A program made the position numbers and the translations under genes. The notes below the pieces were generated by a model that ran no database searches, was not told where the DNA came from, and was given only the letters and a program-made list of their open reading frames with translations. 64,000 nucleotides of DNA from Verrucomicrobiota bacterium. GTDB taxonomy: Bacteria; Verrucomicrobiota; Verrucomicrobiia; Chthoniobacterales; UBA10450. Of the stretch, positions 10,127-64,000 are shown piece by piece (within the stretch, counting starts at the first letter, position 1; every line of letters starts with the position of its first letter). Location of the stretch: NCBI GenBank assembly GCA_003219695.1, contig QHQA01000057.1, positions 1 to 64,000 of the forward strand, in the 5' to 3' direction.

Positions 10127-10359
10127 ATAGCTGGCATTCGGACAATCATATAATGAAGACGCCGCTAAGTGCCGGCTTTGTCTAAACGAACCAGGGCGAT
10201 TTCGAAGGCGCTCGTTCCTATTGAGCGTCTGAGAAGAACCGCTACGATTGAAAGACCCAGGGGACGACTAAACACACTAAACAGGCGAAAATTTTATTCT
10301 GATTTTTCTCGTCATTTCGTCTGCTTCGTGGGCGAATTTCAAATGCGTTGCGAGAAAAG

Positions 10360-10449
10360 TGGCGGAAGGGGTGGGATTCGAACCCACGGTGGGTTTCCCC
10401 ACGCTCGATTTCGAGTCGAGTGCCTTAAACCGGACTCAGCCACCCTTCC
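10360..10449 (-). tRNA. tRNA-Ser(CGA)
   Basis: minus strand GGAAGGGTGGCTGAGTCCGG...CTCGACTCGAAATCGAG...GGTTCGAATCCCACCCCTTCCGCCA: 7-bp acceptor, CGA anticodon, long variable arm, encoded CCA. Confidence 0.95.
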
Positions 10450-10461
10450 TTGGTTCGAAAA

Positions 10462-10531
10462 GAACGTCGAACGCTGAACGTCCAACATCCAACGTCGAAC
10501 GCAAATATCATTGTGAAGTTGGACGTTGGAC
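10462..10531. repeat. Heptamer array with inverted second arm
   Basis: GAACGTC GAACGCT GAACGTC CAACATC CAACGTC GAACGCA then GTTGGAC GTTGGAC. Confidence 0.75.
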
Positions 10532-10719
10532 GGGTGCGGGATACCCCCCGAAAAATGTTACAATTTTTAGCTTGCCATGCCTATCCCCGGGGCTGCATAT
10601 TGTATATCCAACCGGACGGCCACGCTATTACTTGTTGTTGACTGGTATTGACAGGTTGTTGGCGCCGCTGTTCACCAGTATTCGCATCTTATTCTAAACC
10701 TCAACCCTCCCTCACCGTC

Positions 10720-17149: not shown

Positions 17150-17602
17150 ATGGCCAATACCTACACATCCCTTCATTATCATCTCATCTTTTCAACAAAG
17201 AACCGGCAGCCTTGGATTGCGGCCGAAACTGAAGAACGCATTTGGGCATATATCGGAGGAATAGCGCGTGCCCATAAGATGACCGTTCTGCAAGTAGGCG
17301 GCGTGACAGATCACATCCACGTGCTTGTAACGGCACCGGCGACGATCGCCCCGGCACAGATAGCTCAATATCTCAAGGGCGATTCTTCGAAATGGATTCA
17401 CGAGGAGTTTCGAAACATGCAAGGCTTTGGTTGGCGGGATGGATATAGCGCTTTCACGGTAAGCAAATCAAGCCTTCCTGAAGTGGTGCGTTATATTCAG
17501 AACCAGCGCGAGCATCATCACACAAAGACATTTCAAGAAGAGTATCTGGAGTTCTTGGGTAAGCACGGGATCGAATACGATGAACGGTATCTCTGGGGTT
17601 GA
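17150..17602 (+). mobile_element. IS200/RAYT-like Y1 (HUH) tyrosine transposase
   Basis: YTSLHYHLIFSTKNRQPWI, DHIHVLV (HUH), VVRYIQNQREHHHTKTFQEEYLEFLGKHGIEYDERYLWG (catalytic Tyr region). Confidence 0.9.
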
Positions 17603-21599: not shown

Positions 21600-24547
21600 T
21601 TCCGCTCCAGCATCTGCCGCAAGTATTGCCCCGTATGGCTATTTGGAACACTTGCAATTTCCTCCGGCGAACCGGCCCCGACCACCTCACCGCCGCGTTC
21701 ACCGCCTTCAGGTCCCAGATCAATGATCCAATCAGCGCACTTGATCATCTCCAGGTTATGTTCGATCACAATCACCGTATTTCCCGCGTTGCGCAGCTTC
21801 ATCAACACTTGAAGCAGCTTCTCGATATCGGCGAAATGCAATCCCGTCGTCGGTTCATCGAGAATGTAAAGGGTGCGCCCGGTTGCCTTTTTCGCAAGCT
21901 CAGTGGCCAGTTTCACCCGCTGGGCTTCTCCACCGGAAAGAGTTGTTCCTGCCTGCCCAAGCCGCAAATAGCCAAGACCAACATCCAGCAATGAGTTTAG
22001 CTTTTCCGAAATGCTGGGCACATTGCGGAAAAAGCGAGCTGCCTCATCCACGGTCAGATCGAGCACGTCGGCAATATTCTTGCCTTTGTAAGTGATCTCG
22101 AGCGTCTCGCGGTTGTAACGCTGGCCATGGCACACTTCGCATTCCACATACACGTCCGGCAAAAAGTGCATCTCGATCTTGATCAACCCGCCGCCTTCGC
22201 AGTTTTCGCAACGGCCGCCTTTGACATTGAAACTGAAGCGCCCTGCGTCGTAACCCCGCACGCGCGCCGTGGGCAATTGTGCGAACAGCTCACGTATGGG
22301 CGTAAAGGCGCCGGTGTAAGTAACGGGATTCGACCGCGGCGTTCGCCCAATCGCGCTCTGGTCAATCACAATTGCCTTGTCGATCTGTTCCAATCCGCGA
22401 AGCGCCCGATAAGCGCCCGGTTTTTCCTTCGCATTGTAAAACCGCCGAAACAGAGCGCGCCGCAGAATGTCGTCCACCAATGTAGATTTGCCGCTGCCGG
22501 ACACGCCGGTTACGCAAGCAAGACTGCCAAGAGGAAACGAGACATCGATTTTTTTCAGATTGTTTTCGCTCGCGCCCACGACGGTAAGCCAGCCGTCGGC
22601 CTGCGGCTGGACGCGATGTTTTGGAACCGCAATGCGCGCGCGTCCGGAAAGATAATCGGCTGTTAAAGAATTTTTCGAGCGCAGGATGTCGGCAAGACTT
22701 CCCTGCGCAACGATCTCGCCGCCGCGCGGACCCGCACCCGGGCCGAGATCAATAATGTGGTCGGCGGCACGGATTGTTTCTTCATCGTGCTCGACCACGA
22801 TGACCGAATTGCCCAGATCACGCAGCCGTCGCAGCGTGCCCAGCAAACGCGCATTATCGCGCTGGTGTAAGCCGATGCTCGGTTCATCCAAAATATAGAG
22901 AACGCCTGCCAGACCCGAGCCAATTTGCGTCGCGAGCCGGATTCGCTGCGCTTCGCCTCCGGAAAGCGTGCCGCTCTCGCGATCCAACGTGAGATAGCCC
23001 AGCCCGACCTCGACAAGAAATTGCAGGCGCGATTGAATTTCGCGAACGACGTCGCTGACGATGGCATGCTGTTGCGCTGTGAGCTCGAGAGCTCCGATAA
23101 ATTGCAGGGCTGCCTCTACGGTTTGTTCACTGAATTGATGGATGTTCAACTCGCGTCCATGCTTGCCCGCCGTAGCCTCGGCGGAGGAGGGTCGATCCTT
23201 AATCGTGACAGCCAGGATTTCCGGTTTAAGTCTTGCGCCGCCGCACACTTTGCACCGCTCACGCGTCATGAATGCGCGAATCCGAGCGCGCGTGAACTCG
23301 CTCTGTGTTTGCTCGTATAGCCGCTGCATTTGCGGCACAAGGCCTTCGAACGGCTTTGTGACTTTCTTTCCACCATCGCTGGCAAACTCCATTTCAATCG
23401 GCCGGCCATTGGTGCCGAAATAAAGCGCGGTCTTGAATTCGTCCGGTAACTCAGCAAACGGTACATCTTCGCCAACGTGGAAATGTTTCACGAGCGCGCT
23501 TTGCAGATGACGATAGTAGGCGCGCATGCGCTTCGTGCCGCGTCGCCACGGTGTGATTGCTCCCTCGGCCAAGGTTTTGCGCGGATCAGAAATCATCAGC
23601 TCGGGATCGATGACCAGTTGCGTGCCAAGCCCGTGGCAAGCTGGGCATGCCCCGAGATGACTGTTGAAAGAAAAGTGTCTGGGAGTGAGCTCGCCCAGCG
23701 TGAATCCGGTCTCCGCGTTTCCGTAATCTGTGGAGTAACGGAGTTCTTTCCACTGTTCTTCTTCGATGTTCGATGTTCGGTGTTCGGTGTTCGATGTTTT
23801 GTGCTTTGATCGCAAGATAGCCAATCTGTTCCCACCCCATTTGAGCGCAGTCTCAATTGAATCTGTCAGGCGCACACGAATCCCATCGCGCAGGACCAAC
23901 CGATCAACGACCGCCTCGATCGTATGGCGGCTGTTCTTGTTGAGCCGGATCGGCTCGGGGCGATCCAGCTCGACGATCTGGCCGTCGATCCGCGCGCGAA
24001 CGAATCCTTCGCGCCTGAGCTTTTCGAGCACATCCCGGAATTCGCCCAGTTGATTCTCAATCAGCGGCGCCAGCACAATAATTTTGGATCCCGGTTCGTA
24101 GGACAGTATCTGATCGACAATTTGCTGAGGCGTTTGGCGACTCAACGGCCGACCCGTCACCGGATCGTGCGGCTGACCAATAGCGGAAAAAAGGACGCGG
24201 AGATAATCATAAGTTTCGGTGGTGGTCGCGATTGTCGATCTTGGATTCGTGCCCGCGCTGCGCTGCTCGATCGCAATAGCAGGCGAGAGACCCTCGATAA
24301 AATCGACATTTGGCTTCTCCATCTGATCGAGGAACTGCCGCGCATAAGCCGAGAGGCTTTCGACATATCGGCGCTGCCCTTCGGCATAAAGAGTGTCGAA
24401 AGCCAGCGAGGATTTCCCCGAGCCACTCAGACCGGTAATGACCACCAGCTTCTCCCGTGGAATCTCCACATGAAGGTTCTTGAGATTGTGCTGGCGGGCA
24501 CCGCTGACTTTGATAACTTGCGCAGGCATTCTGACGGAGAATGTCAA
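21596..24547 (-). CDS. uvrA: Excinuclease ABC subunit A
   Basis: ITGLSGSGKSSLAFDTLYAEGQRRYVESLSAYARQFL, LSGGEAQRIRLATQIGSGL, VTGVSGSGKSTLVDDIL; start may be internal MPAQVIKVSGARQHNL. Confidence 0.96.
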   Translation of the reverse strand: MTFSVRMPAQVIKVSGARQHNLKNLHVEIPREKLVVITGLSGSGKSSLAFDTLYAEGQRRYVESLSAYARQFLDQMEKPNVDFIEGLSPAIAIEQRSAGTNPRSTIATTTETYDYLRVLFSAIGQPHDPVTGRPLSRQTPQQIVDQILSYEPGSKIIVLAPLIENQLGEFRDVLEKLRREGFVRARIDGQIVELDRPEPIRLNKNSRHTIEAVVDRLVLRDGIRVRLTDSIETALKWGGNRLAILRSKHKTSNTEHRTSNIEEEQWKELRYSTDYGNAETGFTLGELTPRHFSFNSHLGACPACHGLGTQLVIDPELMISDPRKTLAEGAITPWRRGTKRMRAYYRHLQSALVKHFHVGEDVPFAELPDEFKTALYFGTNGRPIEMEFASDGGKKVTKPFEGLVPQMQRLYEQTQSEFTRARIRAFMTRERCKVCGGARLKPEILAVTIKDRPSSAEATAGKHGRELNIHQFSEQTVEAALQFIGALELTAQQHAIVSDVVREIQSRLQFLVEVGLGYLTLDRESGTLSGGEAQRIRLATQIGSGLAGVLYILDEPSIGLHQRDNARLLGTLRRLRDLGNSVIVVEHDEETIRAADHIIDLGPGAGPRGGEIVAQGSLADILRSKNSLTADYLSGRARIAVPKHRVQPQADGWLTVVGASENNLKKIDVSFPLGSLACVTGVSGSGKSTLVDDILRRALFRRFYNAKEKPGAYRALRGLEQIDKAIVIDQSAIGRTPRSNPVTYTGAFTPIRELFAQLPTARVRGYDAGRFSFNVKGGRCENCEGGGLIKIEMHFLPDVYVECEVCHGQRYNRETLEITYKGKNIADVLDLTVDEAARFFRNVPSISEKLNSLLDVGLGYLRLGQAGTTLSGGEAQRVKLATELAKKATGRTLYILDEPTTGLHFADIEKLLQVLMKLRNAGNTVIVIEHNLEMIKCADWIIDLGPEGGERGGEVVGAGSPEEIASVPNSHTGQYLRQMLERK
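23168..23185. repeat. Hairpin repeat inside uvrA
   Basis: CCGCCG TAGCCT CGGCGG; encodes RPSSAEATAGKHG in uvrA. Confidence 0.6.
23764..23798. repeat. Heptamer array inside uvrA
   Basis: CGATGTT CGATGTT CGGTGTT CGGTGTT CGATGTT; encodes KTSNTEHRTSNIE in uvrA. Confidence 0.85.
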
Positions 24548-35867: not shown

Positions 35868-38224
35868 CAACCGGTTCTAAACAAGCCGCAAAGCACAGCG
35901 GCCCAAAGGACCTGCTGTTCGACAAAGCGGTGCAACCCGCAACCATGAGACAACGATTAATCGGTTTGAGACGATTGAAAATCTCGGGTTGGCTGTTGGT
36001 CGGGTTATTCTTGATCAGTGTGTTCCTGATTAATAATAGAGAGCTAGTAAGCGGAGCACGGGTTCAAATCTGGGACGCCTGGTCGTTTTATACCCCGGCG
36101 TTCTCGCTTGTTGCTGATCATGCTCGCAGTGGCCGGTTGCTTCTATGGGATCCGTGGCTGGCAGGTGGTACACCAGATTTCGCTGATCCACAGGTTGCCG
36201 CCGCCTCTCCTATTGCAATCATGGCAGGTGCGATCGGTGGCGGTAATTCGACGGCTTTTCGAATTTACTGGCTTTTTATCTGGATGTTAGGGCCGCTCGG
36301 TCTGCTTCTTTTGGCACGCCATCTCGGTGCTCCTCGCTGGGGCGCTTTCTTGGTGGCGCTAGGGTACGCCTTTTGCGGCTTTTATACGGCACATGCCGAG
36401 CACACAACGGTTCTCTATTCTTTCTCATTCGTGTCCTGGTTTATCTGGCGGTTTGACGTGGCACTAACATCGCTTCGCTTTAAACCAGCTGCCCAAGCCG
36501 GCGCGCTATGGGGACTATCCGCCTTGGGTGGATATCCAGCTATTGTAATTTTGAGCGGCGGAATGTTGTTCTTATGGGGCGTGGGACGATGTTGCAGTTC
36601 TGACCACGGGGCAGCATTTCCAGTCCACAAGCAACCGATTTGGGATCGATTTAAGTTCACCTTTTTAGCACTGGCGATGGTTTTTTGCGTCGGAGTGTTG
36701 ATTATGGCGCCGACTTATGTGGCGTTTTTCAGGGAAGGACTCGGTTATACCGAAAGAGCTGGAGCGGAGCCCCGCTGGCTGGTGACCGCGGGGAATGCTC
36801 TTGATCCTCGGGCGCTTGCCACCTTTGCAAGCCCTTACCTTACCGCCTTGAAGTTCCCTTATCGGAATCCTAGGCTGTGGCCAAAGACCAACATTTCGAT
36901 GGCTGACGTTTACATAGGCGTTCTTCCTCTCATCCTAAGCTTGTTGGCGCTCTGGCAACGACCACGGTCGATCTGGCGTTGGTGGCTGGTTGGAATTATC
37001 GCTTTTTCCCTGGCGTGCGCAGTCGGCGACAGATTACCGGTTCGTGGCTGGCTGTACGACTACTGTCCTCCCACCCGGTATTTCGCGTATCCTGCAATGT
37101 TTCGTGGCTACGCCATTTTTTCGGCAGCCGTGTTAGCCCTCCTGGCTACCAGTGATCTTGAAGCAGCAATTCAAAGCCATGAAAAGCGGATATGGCTGCA
37201 ACTGGCCTTCCTGTCACTAGCAGCGAGCATTGCTGCTGTGTGGGCTTACGTACAGATCGTCTCTCGTGTGGCTAACTTGGGCAGTCAGTTTCACCTTAGC
37301 AACCTGCATCTAGTCGCTATTTGGTTCGGAGCGGTTGGAGTTTCTGTTCTGCTTTGGTTATTTCAGCGGGCAAGAAAATGGCTTCCCGTTTTGTTCGGCG
37401 TTCTGGCAATTCTGGACGCAGGCCTCACGCTGCGTCTTTCTCAGGACTTCGTGTCTGACAGCGGCCGGACACGTTCGTTGTTCAGTCGGATGGATGCCGA
37501 CCACAAAACCACGTTGACTCTGGACAGTCTTCAGCGGGAGGCCAAGCCTCCCTTCTCCCTCGGTGGTGCCCACACCAATAACACGCTCCCCCTTAGGATT
37601 CCTGTGTTTTACAATGATTCAACTATGAAGAACCGCTTTCAGACAGGATTTGCTGACCATCCGGTTTTACTCAGTATGGCCCTGGGTGCTGACAGAATCT
37701 GGTTCACGAAGGAAGCTGCCATTGTGGCCCCTTCGAACGAAACGTTCACGGCTCTTGTCCACCGAAGCGAAGAACTAGGGGCGCCGGTCATAGTCGTCCA
37801 TCCTCGTTTACAAATGCGGAATGTCAGTAGGGTTAGTTCGCCTGCAACTCCGGATAAAGCTGCCCTCGCGTCTATCTCTCAGCTGGCGCCGGCTGAGAAG
37901 GTTCGAACGCACGTTCTAAAATACAGTGCCAACCGATTGAAGCTTAAAGTCTCTTGCCCCGCTGATGGCTGGCTACTGGTGACCGACCGATGGGCAGCTG
38001 GCTGGCGCGCCCGAGTCAACGGTGTTCCAGCGGAAGTCTTCGGCGGAAACTTTATCTTTCGGGCAGTGCGCGTTCTCGCGGGAGAGAACACAATCGACTT
38101 TTATTATCCGCAGCCTCTGTATTTCATACTGGTTTTTGTTAGCTGGGGCACGTTGGTGGCAGTGCTTGCAGTGCCGCCATGGAAAACAAAGCGCACTGCC
38201 TGCCTGCCAAGTCAGTCCGTATAG
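35864..38224 (+). CDS. Large multi-TM membrane protein, YfhO-like
   Basis: 786 aa, many TM segments, C-terminal WAAGWRARVNGVPAEVFGGNFIFRAVRVLAGENTIDFYY. Confidence 0.65.
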   Translation: MTTGSKQAAKHSGPKDLLFDKAVQPATMRQRLIGLRRLKISGWLLVGLFLISVFLINNRELVSGARVQIWDAWSFYTPAFSLVADHARSGRLLLWDPWLAGGTPDFADPQVAAASPIAIMAGAIGGGNSTAFRIYWLFIWMLGPLGLLLLARHLGAPRWGAFLVALGYAFCGFYTAHAEHTTVLYSFSFVSWFIWRFDVALTSLRFKPAAQAGALWGLSALGGYPAIVILSGGMLFLWGVGRCCSSDHGAAFPVHKQPIWDRFKFTFLALAMVFCVGVLIMAPTYVAFFREGLGYTERAGAEPRWLVTAGNALDPRALATFASPYLTALKFPYRNPRLWPKTNISMADVYIGVLPLILSLLALWQRPRSIWRWWLVGIIAFSLACAVGDRLPVRGWLYDYCPPTRYFAYPAMFRGYAIFSAAVLALLATSDLEAAIQSHEKRIWLQLAFLSLAASIAAVWAYVQIVSRVANLGSQFHLSNLHLVAIWFGAVGVSVLLWLFQRARKWLPVLFGVLAILDAGLTLRLSQDFVSDSGRTRSLFSRMDADHKTTLTLDSLQREAKPPFSLGGAHTNNTLPLRIPVFYNDSTMKNRFQTGFADHPVLLSMALGADRIWFTKEAAIVAPSNETFTALVHRSEELGAPVIVVHPRLQMRNVSRVSSPATPDKAALASISQLAPAEKVRTHVLKYSANRLKLKVSCPADGWLLVTDRWAAGWRARVNGVPAEVFGGNFIFRAVRVLAGENTIDFYYPQPLYFILVFVSWGTLVAVLAVPPWKTKRTACLPSQSV

Positions 38225-38252: not shown

Positions 38253-40643
38253 TCACTCAAGACAGTTCGATTCTGCGTGCCGGTCTCCGCCCAACCTTGC
38301 CCGAGATAGCGAATGGCGACGCCAAACAGCACGCGCTTGTCGAATAATCGCTATGGTCCCGCAAAGCAAGAGCACCACCATCGTAACCCGGTTCAATACC
38401 ATCAAGACCTGAAACAGTGTCGGACGATACGCGAACTCGACACGATTTTTGCCGGCATTCAGGAGCACTCCGGCCTGCCACTGGTTTACTCGCAAAACCG
38501 CCTGTTGCTTACCGTTCACCCGGACTTTCCACGCTGGTGTAAACCATTCGTTCAAAATCAGGAGCGAAGCCGCATCGGATTCCACCGTTGAGTAACTGCG
38601 ATTCGGTTGGTTATGAGGATTCGTGATGCGATCACCAGAGCCCGACGGCGGTTGTGCCGCGCCCAGAAGCCGCCGCGCGGCGTTGAAGTCTCGCGGCCTG
38701 ACATACGCCTCGGAGAAGTAATCAAAGCCGTTCCTGACAACGTTTGTGAATCCGCGCTCGCCATTGGTCAGGGCTGCAACGCGATGCACCAGCGTGAGTC
38801 GCTCCATTGGATTGGGGTTTTCGTACAAGCGATAGCCTTCGGTCTCGAGAATCTGTTTTGCATTTGGATCAAGCGACGAATCACTCGGACCACATAACAC
38901 ATAACGCGCTCCCATCATCTCGCGCAGATGAGGGACGTTGGTCAAATTGCTGAAACGAAACTGATCAAAAGGCTGTGGAGGTATCTGATTGTAGAAGCTT
39001 TTGATTCCATAGTAACTTGCGTTCATTGCCCAAAACCGGTTAGAAAATGCCTTGTCACGGAAATCTACCCGGTAATCGGCCGCATCGATTTTTCGAGCCA
39101 CGCTCTGGAGCACTCGGTGGCTAAGTAGATTGGGCGGCTTGTCGAAGTCTGACTGAGAGACTGAGATTCCTCTTACAGGAATCACCATTGCGGCGACCGA
39201 AACGAGTACCCCGGCTGACGTGACATCCTTGTAGCGAGCTACCCTACAGGAACGCCCCAGTACGAACAGAATCGGTGCCAATGCCAGGATCCAAAATCCA
39301 CCTTGCGTCCGGTGGCCTGCGTCCTCTATAAGCTCCCAGAGAATGATTCCAGCGAAAATTAGCATCAATACTGCAGCCGGAATCAGCGAGCGCGGATTTC
39401 GGTGTTCTTTCCATTGCTCAAAGCGCCGCGCCAAAAGGCTGTAGCCAAGCCCGCTTAACAAGGAAGCGCCAATCACGAAGAGAACAAGATGCCGTCCAGC
39501 TTCGCGAATCTTGTTAATCAACGGAAGATGGAAGTTCACGTAGGCCATTCCCAGGTTAGTCCCAAAGCCCGAAAGCAAGCCATAAAGGCCGATGATTCCA
39601 AATGCCACCACCAGCATGCGGCGAAAACCATCGAGGTGGCGAAAGTACACGCCGGTCAGCAGCGCTCCGAGAACACCGAGCGGGCCGACGTAAGGGCTTC
39701 CGACGATGCTAATCCAGGTTGGTTTGATTATAATACCTTTGGCCTGGCCTAGCGTAACTTGAGTGAGGTTGAAATTTTCCCATGGAATATGAGCGTGTCC
39801 GATCACCGCTGCGCCAGCGCCGATGTGGCGAATCATCCCGCCAGTGGCGATGTACGTGGGGAGTATCGCCGCCCCCGCGAATCCGAATGCGATCGCGCCA
39901 CACAACGCTAGGGACCACGCGACGCGCCCGAGGTCCCGTAAGCGTCGCTGCAGATACAACCACGCACTGACTGTTGCAAATAGTATGGCGCAACTCAAAG
40001 CGGTATGAATTACGGCTTGTGACGGGCTTGCCAGGGCTAGCAGGCCCGCTGCAATGGAGAAGACCAGCATTCCCGGGAGCTTGCCGGGAAATCGCAATAA
40101 CAACACCCCGCCAGCAAGCACTAACGGCAACCATGCATAGCTGGCTGTAACAGTGATCCAACTGGCGTAGAGTTCTGTGTTACGCGCCAGCATTCCGACG
40201 GATGCGCCAATATACGCCGCCCACGGTGGAACCGTCGTGCATCGCAACAACACATAAAGATTGACGTAAAAGATAAAGAGGTGAAGCAGGGTCAGATGGG
40301 TGAGCGTATAGAGCGACGCCAACGGCCCGCCATAGTTGATCAGCCCAAAAAAATAAAACGGGTAGAGAATTGAAAAGTGCGGACTCTCAAAAACGGGAAA
40401 GCCGGTCCCGATATCCGGCAAGTAGTAGGGCACAGTCCCTGAGAACGCCAAGCGTGAGACCTCGGAAAATATCGGTCCATAGATGTGGACATTGTCCAGA
40501 AAGGGCCCAAAGAGCAGCCGGCCCGCTAAGAATGAGCCGTAGCGAAGCAAAAATGTAATAACCAACGCGAGAATGATAAACGCGTCCGAGCCGCCACTGT
40601 ATCGCTGCTCGGGGATCATGCGCTCAGAAGGTCTTATGGCCAC
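38253..40643 (-). CDS. Large multi-TM membrane protein, YfhO-like
   Basis: 796 aa, C-terminal LILNEWFTPAWKVRVNGKQQAVLRVNQWQAGVLLNAGKNRVEFAYRP. Confidence 0.7.
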   Translation of the reverse strand: MAIRPSERMIPEQRYSGGSDAFIILALVITFLLRYGSFLAGRLLFGPFLDNVHIYGPIFSEVSRLAFSGTVPYYLPDIGTGFPVFESPHFSILYPFYFFGLINYGGPLASLYTLTHLTLLHLFIFYVNLYVLLRCTTVPPWAAYIGASVGMLARNTELYASWITVTASYAWLPLVLAGGVLLLRFPGKLPGMLVFSIAAGLLALASPSQAVIHTALSCAILFATVSAWLYLQRRLRDLGRVAWSLALCGAIAFGFAGAAILPTYIATGGMIRHIGAGAAVIGHAHIPWENFNLTQVTLGQAKGIIIKPTWISIVGSPYVGPLGVLGALLTGVYFRHLDGFRRMLVVAFGIIGLYGLLSGFGTNLGMAYVNFHLPLINKIREAGRHLVLFVIGASLLSGLGYSLLARRFEQWKEHRNPRSLIPAAVLMLIFAGIILWELIEDAGHRTQGGFWILALAPILFVLGRSCRVARYKDVTSAGVLVSVAAMVIPVRGISVSQSDFDKPPNLLSHRVLQSVARKIDAADYRVDFRDKAFSNRFWAMNASYYGIKSFYNQIPPQPFDQFRFSNLTNVPHLREMMGARYVLCGPSDSSLDPNAKQILETEGYRLYENPNPMERLTLVHRVAALTNGERGFTNVVRNGFDYFSEAYVRPRDFNAARRLLGAAQPPSGSGDRITNPHNQPNRSYSTVESDAASLLILNEWFTPAWKVRVNGKQQAVLRVNQWQAGVLLNAGKNRVEFAYRPTLFQVLMVLNRVTMVVLLLCGTIAIIRQARAVWRRHSLSRARLGGDRHAESNCLE

Positions 40644-61078: not shown

Positions 61079-61214
61079 GGGGAGCACAGGCTGCCAGCCT
61101 GTAGTCGTCGGCAGCTTGCCGATGACCGCACCGGGAGCCAAGCGGGAGTTTCAGTGAGCGCAGAAGCTTTTCGGCAGGCTGCCGAAAAGGACAGGCTGGC
61201 AGCCTGTGCTCCCC
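61079..61214. repeat. Nested palindromic element, copy B
   Basis: GGGGAGCACAGGCTGCCAGCCTGTAGT ... ACAGGCTGGCAGCCTGTGCTCCCC with inner TTTTCGGCAGGCTGCCGAAAA and GTAG-TCG-TCGGCA-GCT-TGCCGA. Confidence 0.88.
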
Positions 61215-61288: not shown

Positions 61289-62218
61289 TTATTCGGCGAA
61301 GTCTATTTGGATTGGAACGTCGATGTAGCCTTTGCTGCGCGCTTCCGTCAGGAATTTGCGGACAGCGGCGCGACCGGTCTCACCATAATCGCGAGTAAAC
61401 TCATTCACATACATGCCGATGAATTTCCCCGTGAGCGTCGCGCCCATGTCGCGCGCGTAAGCAAGGGAATGGCGCACCGCCTCGTCCCGATGCGCCAGGC
61501 CGTAGTCGATGCTTTCGCGAATAATTTCGCTGAGATCGCGCCGGACTCGGGGCGGGATATCCTTGCGCACCACATTTGCACCAAGGGGCAACGGGAAGCC
61601 GGTCTTGCGCTTCCACCACTCGCCAAGATCGATCACTTTCTCGAAACCGGATCGCGCGTAAGTGAGTTGCCCCTCGTGAATGATCAAACCGGCGTCGGCG
61701 CGACCGGTTTTGACTGCGTCGAAAATTTCATCGAACGGGACGACAAGATAATCGAATTCCCCGAGAAAAAGCTGAAGCGCGAGAAATGCGCTGGTCATGC
61801 GCCCTGGGACAGCGATTGTGCAACTTCGCAATGACTCGCGAGCGGCTTCGTCAGTCGTTGGCGGCCTCGCGGCGCGCACGGGAGTGCGCGTCCTACCTCG
61901 CCGTTTCGCCGTTTCGCCGTTTCGCCGTTTCTGAACAATAATCGGCCCATATCCATCGCCCATGCTCGCACCACAGGGCAGCAGCGCGTATTTGTCCGCG
62001 ACATACGCATACGCGTGAATCGAGATCGCGGAAATATGCAGCTCGCCGCGCCGCGCCCGCTCATTCAGTGTTTGAATGTCCTCCAGCCGATGTTCGAACT
62101 GGTAACCGCGGAGGTCGATCTTATTTTTCGCGATCGCGTAGAACATGAACGCGTCGTCGGGGTCGGGGGAATGACCGAGGGTAAAGAGATCAGGAGTGTC
62201 CTTTGTACTGCGATGCAT
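61289..62218 (-). CDS. mqnD: 1,4-dihydroxy-6-naphthoate synthase-like protein (futalosine pathway)
   Basis: FTLGHSPDPDDAFMFYAIAKNKID, ISAISIHAYAYVADKYALLPCGASMGDGYGPIIV, IIHEGQLTY. Confidence 0.85.
   Translation of the reverse strand: MHRSTKDTPDLFTLGHSPDPDDAFMFYAIAKNKIDLRGYQFEHRLEDIQTLNERARRGELHISAISIHAYAYVADKYALLPCGASMGDGYGPIIVQKRRNGETAKRRGRTRTPVRAARPPTTDEAARESLRSCTIAVPGRMTSAFLALQLFLGEFDYLVVPFDEIFDAVKTGRADAGLIIHEGQLTYARSGFEKVIDLGEWWKRKTGFPLPLGANVVRKDIPPRVRRDLSEIIRESIDYGLAHRDEAVRHSLAYARDMGATLTGKFIGMYVNEFTRDYGETGRAAVRKFLTEARSKGYIDVPIQIDFAE
61873..61930 (-). repeat. GTAG-hairpin plus four perfect octamers inside mqnD
   Basis: CGCGCAC GGGA GTGCGCG, CTAC at 61893-61896, then CGCCGTTT x4 at 61899-61930. 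Confidence 0.85.
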
Positions 62219-62243: not shown

Positions 62244-64000
62244 TCAGTCGCCGTCTTCTTCAATTAGTGGGCAGGCGCAGAAGAGGTGTCTGTCGCCATA
62301 GACGTTGTCGATGCGGGCGACGGCGGGCCAGAATTTGTGTTCGCGCGTCCAGGGCGCGGGGAACGCTGCTTGTTCGCGCGAGTAAGGACGCTCCCATTTG
62401 TCGGACGCGATTTGGCGCGCGGTGTGCGGCGCGTTTTTGAGCAAGTTATTTTGTCGATTTTGTTTTCCGTCGGCGATCGCTTGCATCTCCTCGTGGATGG
62501 AGATCATCGCCTCGCAGAAACGATCGAGTTCGTGTTTCGGTTCGCTCTCGGTCGGCTCGATCATCATTGTGCCGGCAACTGGAAAGGAAATGGTCGGCGC
62601 GTGAAAGCCGTAATCCATCAAACGCTTTGCCACGTCTTCGACTTCGATGCTTGCGCTTTTCCACTGGCGCAGATCGATGATGCATTCGTGCGCGACCAGG
62701 CCGTGCTTGCCTTTGAACAGAACTGGAAAGTACGGGTCGAGACGTTTGGCGATGTAGTTTGCGTTGAGAATTGCTACCTCGCTCGCTCGTTTCAATCCTT
62801 CCGCGCCCATCATGCGGATGTACATCCACGTGATCGCCAGAATACTGGCGCTGCCCCAGGGCGCCGCCGAAACATTGCCGCCTTTGCCGCCGCCGTGGCG
62901 GTAATCAGAGCCGCCTCCGGTTGGCGGGCGTTTGCCACGTTCTCCTTCGCCAAACAAGATTCGGCCAGTCTCCGGATCGAGAATGAATTGTCGCGGAAAA
63001 TACGGTGCGAGATGTTTGGCCACACCGATCGGCCCCACGCCGGGCCCACCGCCTCCGTGCGGGATGCAAAACGTTTTGTGCAAATTCAAGTGACAAACGT
63101 CGGCGCCATAGTCGCCGGGGCGACAAAGACCGACCTGCGCGTTCGTGTTCGCGCCGTCCATGTAAACTTGCCCGCCGTGCGTGTGCATGATGTCGCAGAT
63201 TTCGCGGATAGTCGGTTCGAATACACCGTGCGTGGACGGATACGTGACCATCAACGCGGCGAGATCGCGTGCGTGCTCATCTGCTTTGGCACGCAGATCT
63301 GCAAGATCGATGTCTCCATCTTTCAAACAGGCAACTGAGACAACTTTAAATCCGGCCATGACCGCGCTGGCTGGGTTGGTGCCGTGCGCCGAGGTGGGGA
63401 TGAGACAAACGTTGCGATGTGCTTCACCGCGCGACGCGTGATACTCTCGAATGGCGAGCAGACCCGCGAATTCGCCTTGCGATCCGGCATTTGGTTGCAA
63501 GGACACGGCCGCGAAGCCGGTGATTTCCGCAAGCCAGTCTTCCAACTGCCGGAAAATTTCCGTGTAGCCCGTTGCTTGTTCAATGGGGGCGAACGGATGC
63601 AGCTTGGCAATCTCCGGCCACGAGATGGGAAACATTTCCGCAGTCGCGTTGAGTTTCATGGTGCACGAGCCAAGTGGAATCATTGATGTCGTCAGCGACA
63701 GATCGCGCGATTCCAGCTTTTTCAGATAACGCAGCATTTCCGTCTCGGTATCGTGCGTGTTGAAGATGTGATGAGTGAGAAACTCGGAATTGCGGATTGC
63801 GAATTGCGGAATGCGCAGTGGTGGCTCGCCTAAATCGTCATCGGCGAAATCGCGCACGGTGGTGCCGCGGAAGATCGACATCAGCAGCTCGATGTCTCGC
63901 GGCATTGTTGTTTCGTCGAATGAAATGCCGACTGCGCGTTGACCGAGCGCGCGCAAATTGCAGCCGGATTTTGCCGCGTGTTCCAGAATGACTTCGCTCG
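62244..64000 (-). CDS. gcvP: Glycine dehydrogenase (P-protein), C-terminal part; runs off the window
   Basis: [55 protein letters not shown]; frame open past 63956 ([19 protein letters not shown]). Confidence 0.95.

Follow-up and report, generated by a model that had tools for sequence, protein, structure and literature searches.

How does a gene for menaquinone synthesis come to carry a hairpin and a tandem array in frame inside its coding sequence, and what becomes of the enzyme? We addressed this question in a stretch of 64,000 nt (hereafter the window) from a soil bacterium of the phylum Verrucomicrobiota, whose genome (G000) is a 3.14-Mb draft, 93% complete. Among named relatives, the nearest are MAGs from soil with the labels Verrucomicrobia, Spartobacteria or Chthoniobacterales, and every genome compared here is a draft MAG. 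The host gene, mqnD (61289-62218, minus strand; 309 aa), is open from end to end and matches PF02621 at 5e-74. PDB entries 1zbm and 2czl align to both sides of the insert, and by both profile and two-domain fold the product is a member of the MqnD family. Since MqnC is also encoded in this genome, the cell probably uses the futalosine route and needs mqnD, in agreement with an earlier sequence-only reading, which had called mqnD a likely important menaquinone gene.

Alignment of the flanks delimits a variable linker of 90 nt (residues 97-126, 30 aa; 61841-61930, minus strand) that contains the insert. Read along the sense strand, GYGPIIVQ precedes 4.2 copies of the octamer CGAAACGG (CGCCGTTT on the plus strand), which adjoin the 27-nt element GGTAGGACGCGCACTCCCGTGCGCGCC (61871-61897, minus strand) with no gap; GCGAGGCCGCCAACGACTGACGAAGCCGCT comes next, and then the conserved part of the protein again. 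TRF places the array at 61898-61931 (minus strand), with period 8 and 100% match. No period-8 array as strong as this one was seen in a second-order shuffle of the window, and first-order shuffles gave about 0.05 arrays of that strength per 64 kb. Array and element together measure 61 nt, and the insert peptide is basic. The hairpin within the element (61873-61890) has the stem CGCGCAC/GTGCGCG and the loop TCCC. Both repeats thus lie where the sequence-only reading had put them, and its in-frame composite of GTAG hairpin and octamers inside a real mqnD is borne out. The peptide that it gave is in frame, but the residues ARESLRS before CTIAVPGRM had been omitted. Its 'about 30 extra residues' describes the whole in-frame linker of 30 aa; the excess itself depends on the reference and amounts to 12 aa over the 18-aa linker of the sister gene.

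As can be seen from its anatomy, the element resembles a REP of the GTAG type: GTAG stands at the foot of a stem-loop in the 20-40 nt range, with a GGTAGG head, a 7-bp stem and the TCCC loop, and as RNA GGTAGGACGCGCACTCCCGTGCGCGCC folds at -16.3 kcal/mol (z -2.3). In 464 kb of G000, GGTAGG is followed by a hairpin stem of at least 8 in 16 of 76 cases, compared with 2.3% for permuted hexamers. A search for the bare 18-nt hairpin elsewhere gave no exact copies, and near matches at control level; a search pattern is informative only when it includes the GGTAGG head. The mqnD subtype so defined is low-copy, with six copies interspersed through the genome (control 0). Two of these, at C200:10111 (plus) and 10765 (minus), bracket a RAYT at 10261-10642 whose frame is broken, and two further copies on C157 form an inverted dimer with the GTAG ends outward. 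A commoner subtype, GGTAGGGCGCGACCGCCGGGCGCGCC, has 56 copies genome-wide (at most 3 mismatches; control 0), and on C100 its copies at 38169-38194 (plus) and 38685-38710 (minus) stand around an intact RAYT (38253-38624). Inverted copies that flank a RAYT, as in REPtrons, are therefore present on both C200 and C100. The mqnD copy, being inside a gene, departs from the usual extragenic location, which does not strictly define REPs. We conclude, on the strength of sequence comparison, that the mqnD hairpin is a REP associated with a RAYT gene, with the anatomy described for GTAG REPs and REPtrons (PMC3733652). Its movement would presumably be due to a RAYT, and the C200 RAYT that shares the mqnD subtype is frame-broken.

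IS200-like Y1 transposases (PF01797) were also considered as mobiliser of the REP and rejected, the flanks that were read showing other hairpins or incidental GGTAGG only. The window itself holds a stand-alone IS200-like Y1 transposase of 150 aa with flanking hairpins of its own (17150-17602). As a RAYT, the window's IS200-like transposase scored 22.9 bits against a cut-off of 80 bits (NF047646), and it was set aside for true RAYTs.

In order to compare the linker between species, the DNA between the conserved flanks was excised from about 90 mqnD loci. The linker is exactly 15 nt (5 aa) long in 45 more distant species (other Verrucomicrobiota, Planctomycetota, Sumerlaeota and others), mostly 39-57 nt (13-19 aa) and free of obvious repeats in Chthoniobacterales outside the window family, and 24-141 nt within that family. 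Periodicity is significant (p <=0.01 against shuffles of the same linker) in 21 of 35 family linkers, with a 7-nt period in 16 and an 8-nt period in 5. The contents differ in most of the 35 members and include heptamers, octamers and other dispersed palindromes; when checked across congeners, the linker sequence was not conserved. For example, CCCGCCTACGCCAAGGCTACGGCGGG, which occurs as a dispersed repeat in the genomes of 31 of 35 congeners (the reversed control pattern gave 0 matches), lies inside the mqnD linkers of G030 and G027. The latter draft genome has two mqnD loci (G027:C184 and G027:C73), with the palindrome CCCGCC(T/G)ACGCCAAGGCTACGGCGGG in or near both linkers, and these represent a duplicate gene or a mixed bin. 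The frame is kept in 34 of the 35 family rows. The only exception, L120 (G024:C134), has heptamers and a stop and has lost GASMGDGYGP, which could reflect either pseudogenisation or misassembly.

On a maximum-likelihood MqnD tree of 38 rows, built with the linker removed, the repeat class (octamer, heptamer or none) changes at least 13 times; strongly supported branches alone give at least 4 changes for heptamers. The sister of the window gene (L009; support 99/98, DNA identity 92.5%) has a linker of 54 nt (18 aa) with heptamers and no REP, compared with octamers and REP in the window, which means that the window insert is younger than the split or was replaced in L009. Among the species compared, none was found with the identical octamer array but no REP. 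Considering which repeats occupy the linker, that they are in frame and that they recur at this position, all of which can be read directly from the loci, we conclude that the mqnD linker is a recurrent landing site and a hotspot in this family. The earlier expectation that homologs would not carry the same linker was borne out by the alignment, but the insert is no one-off, most congeners having another repeat insert.

An AlphaFold2 model of MqnD based on 39 aligned homologues has a mean pLDDT of 90, with residues 103-115 below 50, and the top Foldseek matches of the model are PDB 1zbm (TM 0.96) and the MqnD structure 2czl (TM 0.94; both by target length). The core of the enzyme is thus predicted to be intact and the insert disordered, in line with the earlier proposal that the extra residues are tolerated. 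The insert follows directly after strand 93-97 of the model. Since the topology of the periplasmic-binding-protein-like fold suggests that this is the first hinge strand, the insert should protrude from the surface close to the hinge, outside the active site, and the enzyme would be expected to remain active. A basic, disordered loop could in turn have a selected role, for example in tuning domain motion or in binding a partner; the longer linker is retained throughout the family, and the window insert is basic. However, sequence, length and repeat type differ between sister species, and the unrelated UvrA shows the same behaviour (see below), so that we regard an adaptive linker as improbable. 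Most likely, the repeat has no function in MqnD.

Arrays of this kind are not restricted to mqnD. In the 464 kb of the 3.1-Mb G000 on which array statistics were computed, 27 heptamer and 13 octamer arrays were found, mostly outside genes; with about three or more units, at many loci and above chance, they form a tandem-repeat class. Under a more stringent cut-off, heptamer and octamer arrays number 4.8 and 2.2 per 100 kb in the 400 kb that lie beyond the window, compared with 1.8 and 0.8 in congeners; G039 and G044, of the same order, have 3 and 2 heptamer arrays per 100 kb and no octamers, G038 and G043, also of this order, have neither kind, and shuffles yielded zero arrays of period 7 or 8. 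The sequence-only reading had recognised the composite in mqnD, but as an interpretation it was incomplete: the hairpin is a RAYT-tied REP, and the genome contains dozens of 7- or 8-mer arrays, the mqnD array among them. In-frame arrays also occur in genes supported by Pfam: uvrA, a gene whose product has the array between its B12-binding and MeaB domains (L153:3827-3861), that of a dihydroorotase-like amidohydrolase, and an LpxL/GT9 fusion.

The uvrA array, made of heptamers, follows the UvrA interaction domain (window 23762-23798). Over 30 genomes of the genus, this loop ranges from 39 to 105 nt, contains heptamers, octamers or palindromes and is in frame in 29; in one subgroup its length is constant at 72 nt while the heptamers decay through point changes. 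We conclude that the uvrA loop behaves like the mqnD linker. In one uvrA, L304 (G034:C2), the frame is broken across a perfect heptamer run, owing to slippage, a pseudogene or misassembly. A heptamer-like stretch (63789-63815) in gcvP (62244-63998, minus strand) was rejected as a second insert: the part of the gene that contains it is of one length, 69 nt, in 29 of the 30 genomes compared within the genus, which marks it as old and conserved rather than recently inserted. In the gcvP of L331 (G028:C27), the segment is 33 nt longer, in frame, and includes GGCATAGGCTTCCAGCCTGTGG, which is similar to a dispersed AGGCTGCCAGCCTGT palindrome.

The broken frames bear on two further explanations. Eight is not a multiple of three, and slippage by one unit would break the mqnD frame, such that the array could act as a phase-variable contingency locus in which a unit gained or lost switches the gene off or on; a heptamer array in a frame-broken uvrA (L304) does exist. 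This is very unlikely for mqnD, given that its array has only four units, that the repeats vary between species rather than being conserved, that 34 of 35 linkers are in frame and that mqnD is a metabolic and not a surface gene. Alternatively, the insert could be an assembly artefact or a chimera, the data being MAGs and the L120 and L304 frames looking damaged. This can be set aside almost entirely, since the 61 nt of array and REP are shorter than a typical short read, the site is on a 71-kb contig, and more than 20 independent MAGs have in-frame repeat inserts. With the L120 mqnD and L304 uvrA frames broken, either tolerance of the inserts is incomplete or these two assemblies are wrong.

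We therefore consider it highly probable that neutral or selfish repeats entered a permissive mqnD linker and that selection keeps the in-frame outcomes. On this view, repeat DNA would have produced the 90-nt linker by inserting at a permissive point between the two domains: slippage presumably lengthened or shortened an 8-nt array, at whose edge a single GTAG-REP associated with a RAYT would have landed. As the total length is divisible by three and contains no stops, the two-domain fold would be kept, with a basic disordered loop and a functional enzyme. Because selection would purge frame-breaking and active-site events, the inserts that survive would be those in frame and in linkers. A protein linker would thus be repeatedly rewritten by unrelated repeat DNA while the surrounding enzyme is conserved, a natural experiment in which non-coding repeats turn into protein sequence.

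The association with RAYTs extends into other core enzymes, as many RAYT matches sit in very long open frames. We read 21 such embedded matches (including L336 in G000:C84, L337 in G000:C8, L338 in G000:C82, L340-L351 and L353-L356) and assigned seven hosts by Pfam and the rest by similarity of the flanking sequences. The MetH and CarB carriers, and all RecG carriers but one, belong to the genus of the window. In MetH, a RAYT lies between the homocysteine and pterin domains in the window genome (C84, by Pfam) and, by similarity, in G003 and G008; G007 (by Pfam) and G001 have it at a second site, ahead of the activation domain. In RecG it lies inside helicase motor 1 in the window genome (C8, by Pfam) and in G001, G003, G007 and G011, and a RecG of another family in the order (G038, by Pfam) also has one. 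In CarB the oligomerisation region is occupied in the window genome (C82) and G003 (both by Pfam) and in G001, G007, G012, G028 and G031 (by similarity), and a valyl-tRNA synthetase carries a RAYT in G042 of the same order, likewise outside the window family (by Pfam). For scale, residues 336-583 (248 aa) of the window-genome RecG correspond to residues 436-469 (34 aa) of the PDB RecG 1gm5.

The HUH motif is kept in all embedded RAYTs except one, which is cut by a contig end, and the catalytic tyrosine motif in most. Where dS is unsaturated, dN/dS is 0.05-0.10 for the RAYT part compared with 0.06-0.10 for the host part, although dS is high and these values are rough; apparently, the embedded RAYTs are under purifying selection about as strong as that on the host enzyme. 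In a quick tree with long branches, they cluster together, apart from the sampled free RAYTs, in clades that are largely host-specific. Inverted palindromes clearly bracket the RAYT within the reading frame in 6 of 10 copies tested, for example GGTAGCGCACGCGTCTCGCGTG in a congener's RecG. In the window genome's RecG, the RAYT ends are GGGGAGCACAGGCTGCCAGCCTGT, a palindrome that occurs 18 times in 464 kb, 13 of the copies being exact (control 0). An inverted pair of this palindrome just downstream of mqnD consists of a copy at 61079-61102 (plus), identical to the recG RAYT ends, and another at 61191-61214 (minus), 75 bp from the stop. Since its ends are identical to this abundant dispersed palindrome, the helicase-fused transposase may be the source of the GGGGAGCACAGGCTGCCAGCCTGT repeats.

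On balance, we lean towards seeing the mqnD insert as a small-scale form of a habit shared across the lineage, whereby a RAYT/REP system resides in frame inside core enzymes and the transposase forms an internal domain. A classification of the RAYT transposase family excluded members of unexpectedly great length, treating them as fusions or annotation errors (PMC6006769), and a targeted literature search, with most subscription journals outside its scope, yielded no account of RAYTs within RecG or MetH. This is the part of the present observations most worth following, and the direct question that it raises is whether RAYTs are lasting domains of RecG, MetH and CarB and are active from there.

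How does the mqnD insert compare with known systems? GTAG REPs have a GTAG head, a stem of 7-9 bp and a RAYT with inverted flanking copies, and intragenic cases have been reported (Di Nocera 2013, PMC3733652). Most intragenic GTAG REPs were those of Opitutus terrae, also one of the Verrucomicrobiota, uvrA genes included, and one comparable same-site case, recB of two Xanthomonas, is noted there (PMC3733652). Head, stem, RAYT flanking and intragenic location are common to the mqnD element, which differs in that it adjoins a tandem octamer array, in its host gene, and in that the same site has varied repeats by species. Rickettsia palindromic elements, of about 100-150 bp, lie in frame in unrelated housekeeping genes and encode a conserved peptide (PMC10969869); the mqnD element is likewise a palindromic repeat in frame in a housekeeping gene, but it is only 27 nt long and the linker peptide differs between species, so that it does not belong to this class. 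Tandem repeats of 7- to 9-nt units are abundant and mostly intergenic in Xanthomonas and Nostoc (PMC4692102), in Beggiatoaceae (PMC4679880) and as cyanobacterial STRR, as are the heptamer-class arrays of the window genome; here, however, arrays of units that are not a multiple of three also occur within conserved genes without breaking the frame. We conclude that in-frame REPs are known already, from Opitutus and Rickettsia, and that what is new is the composite of REP and octamers, together with turnover that recurs at a single site.
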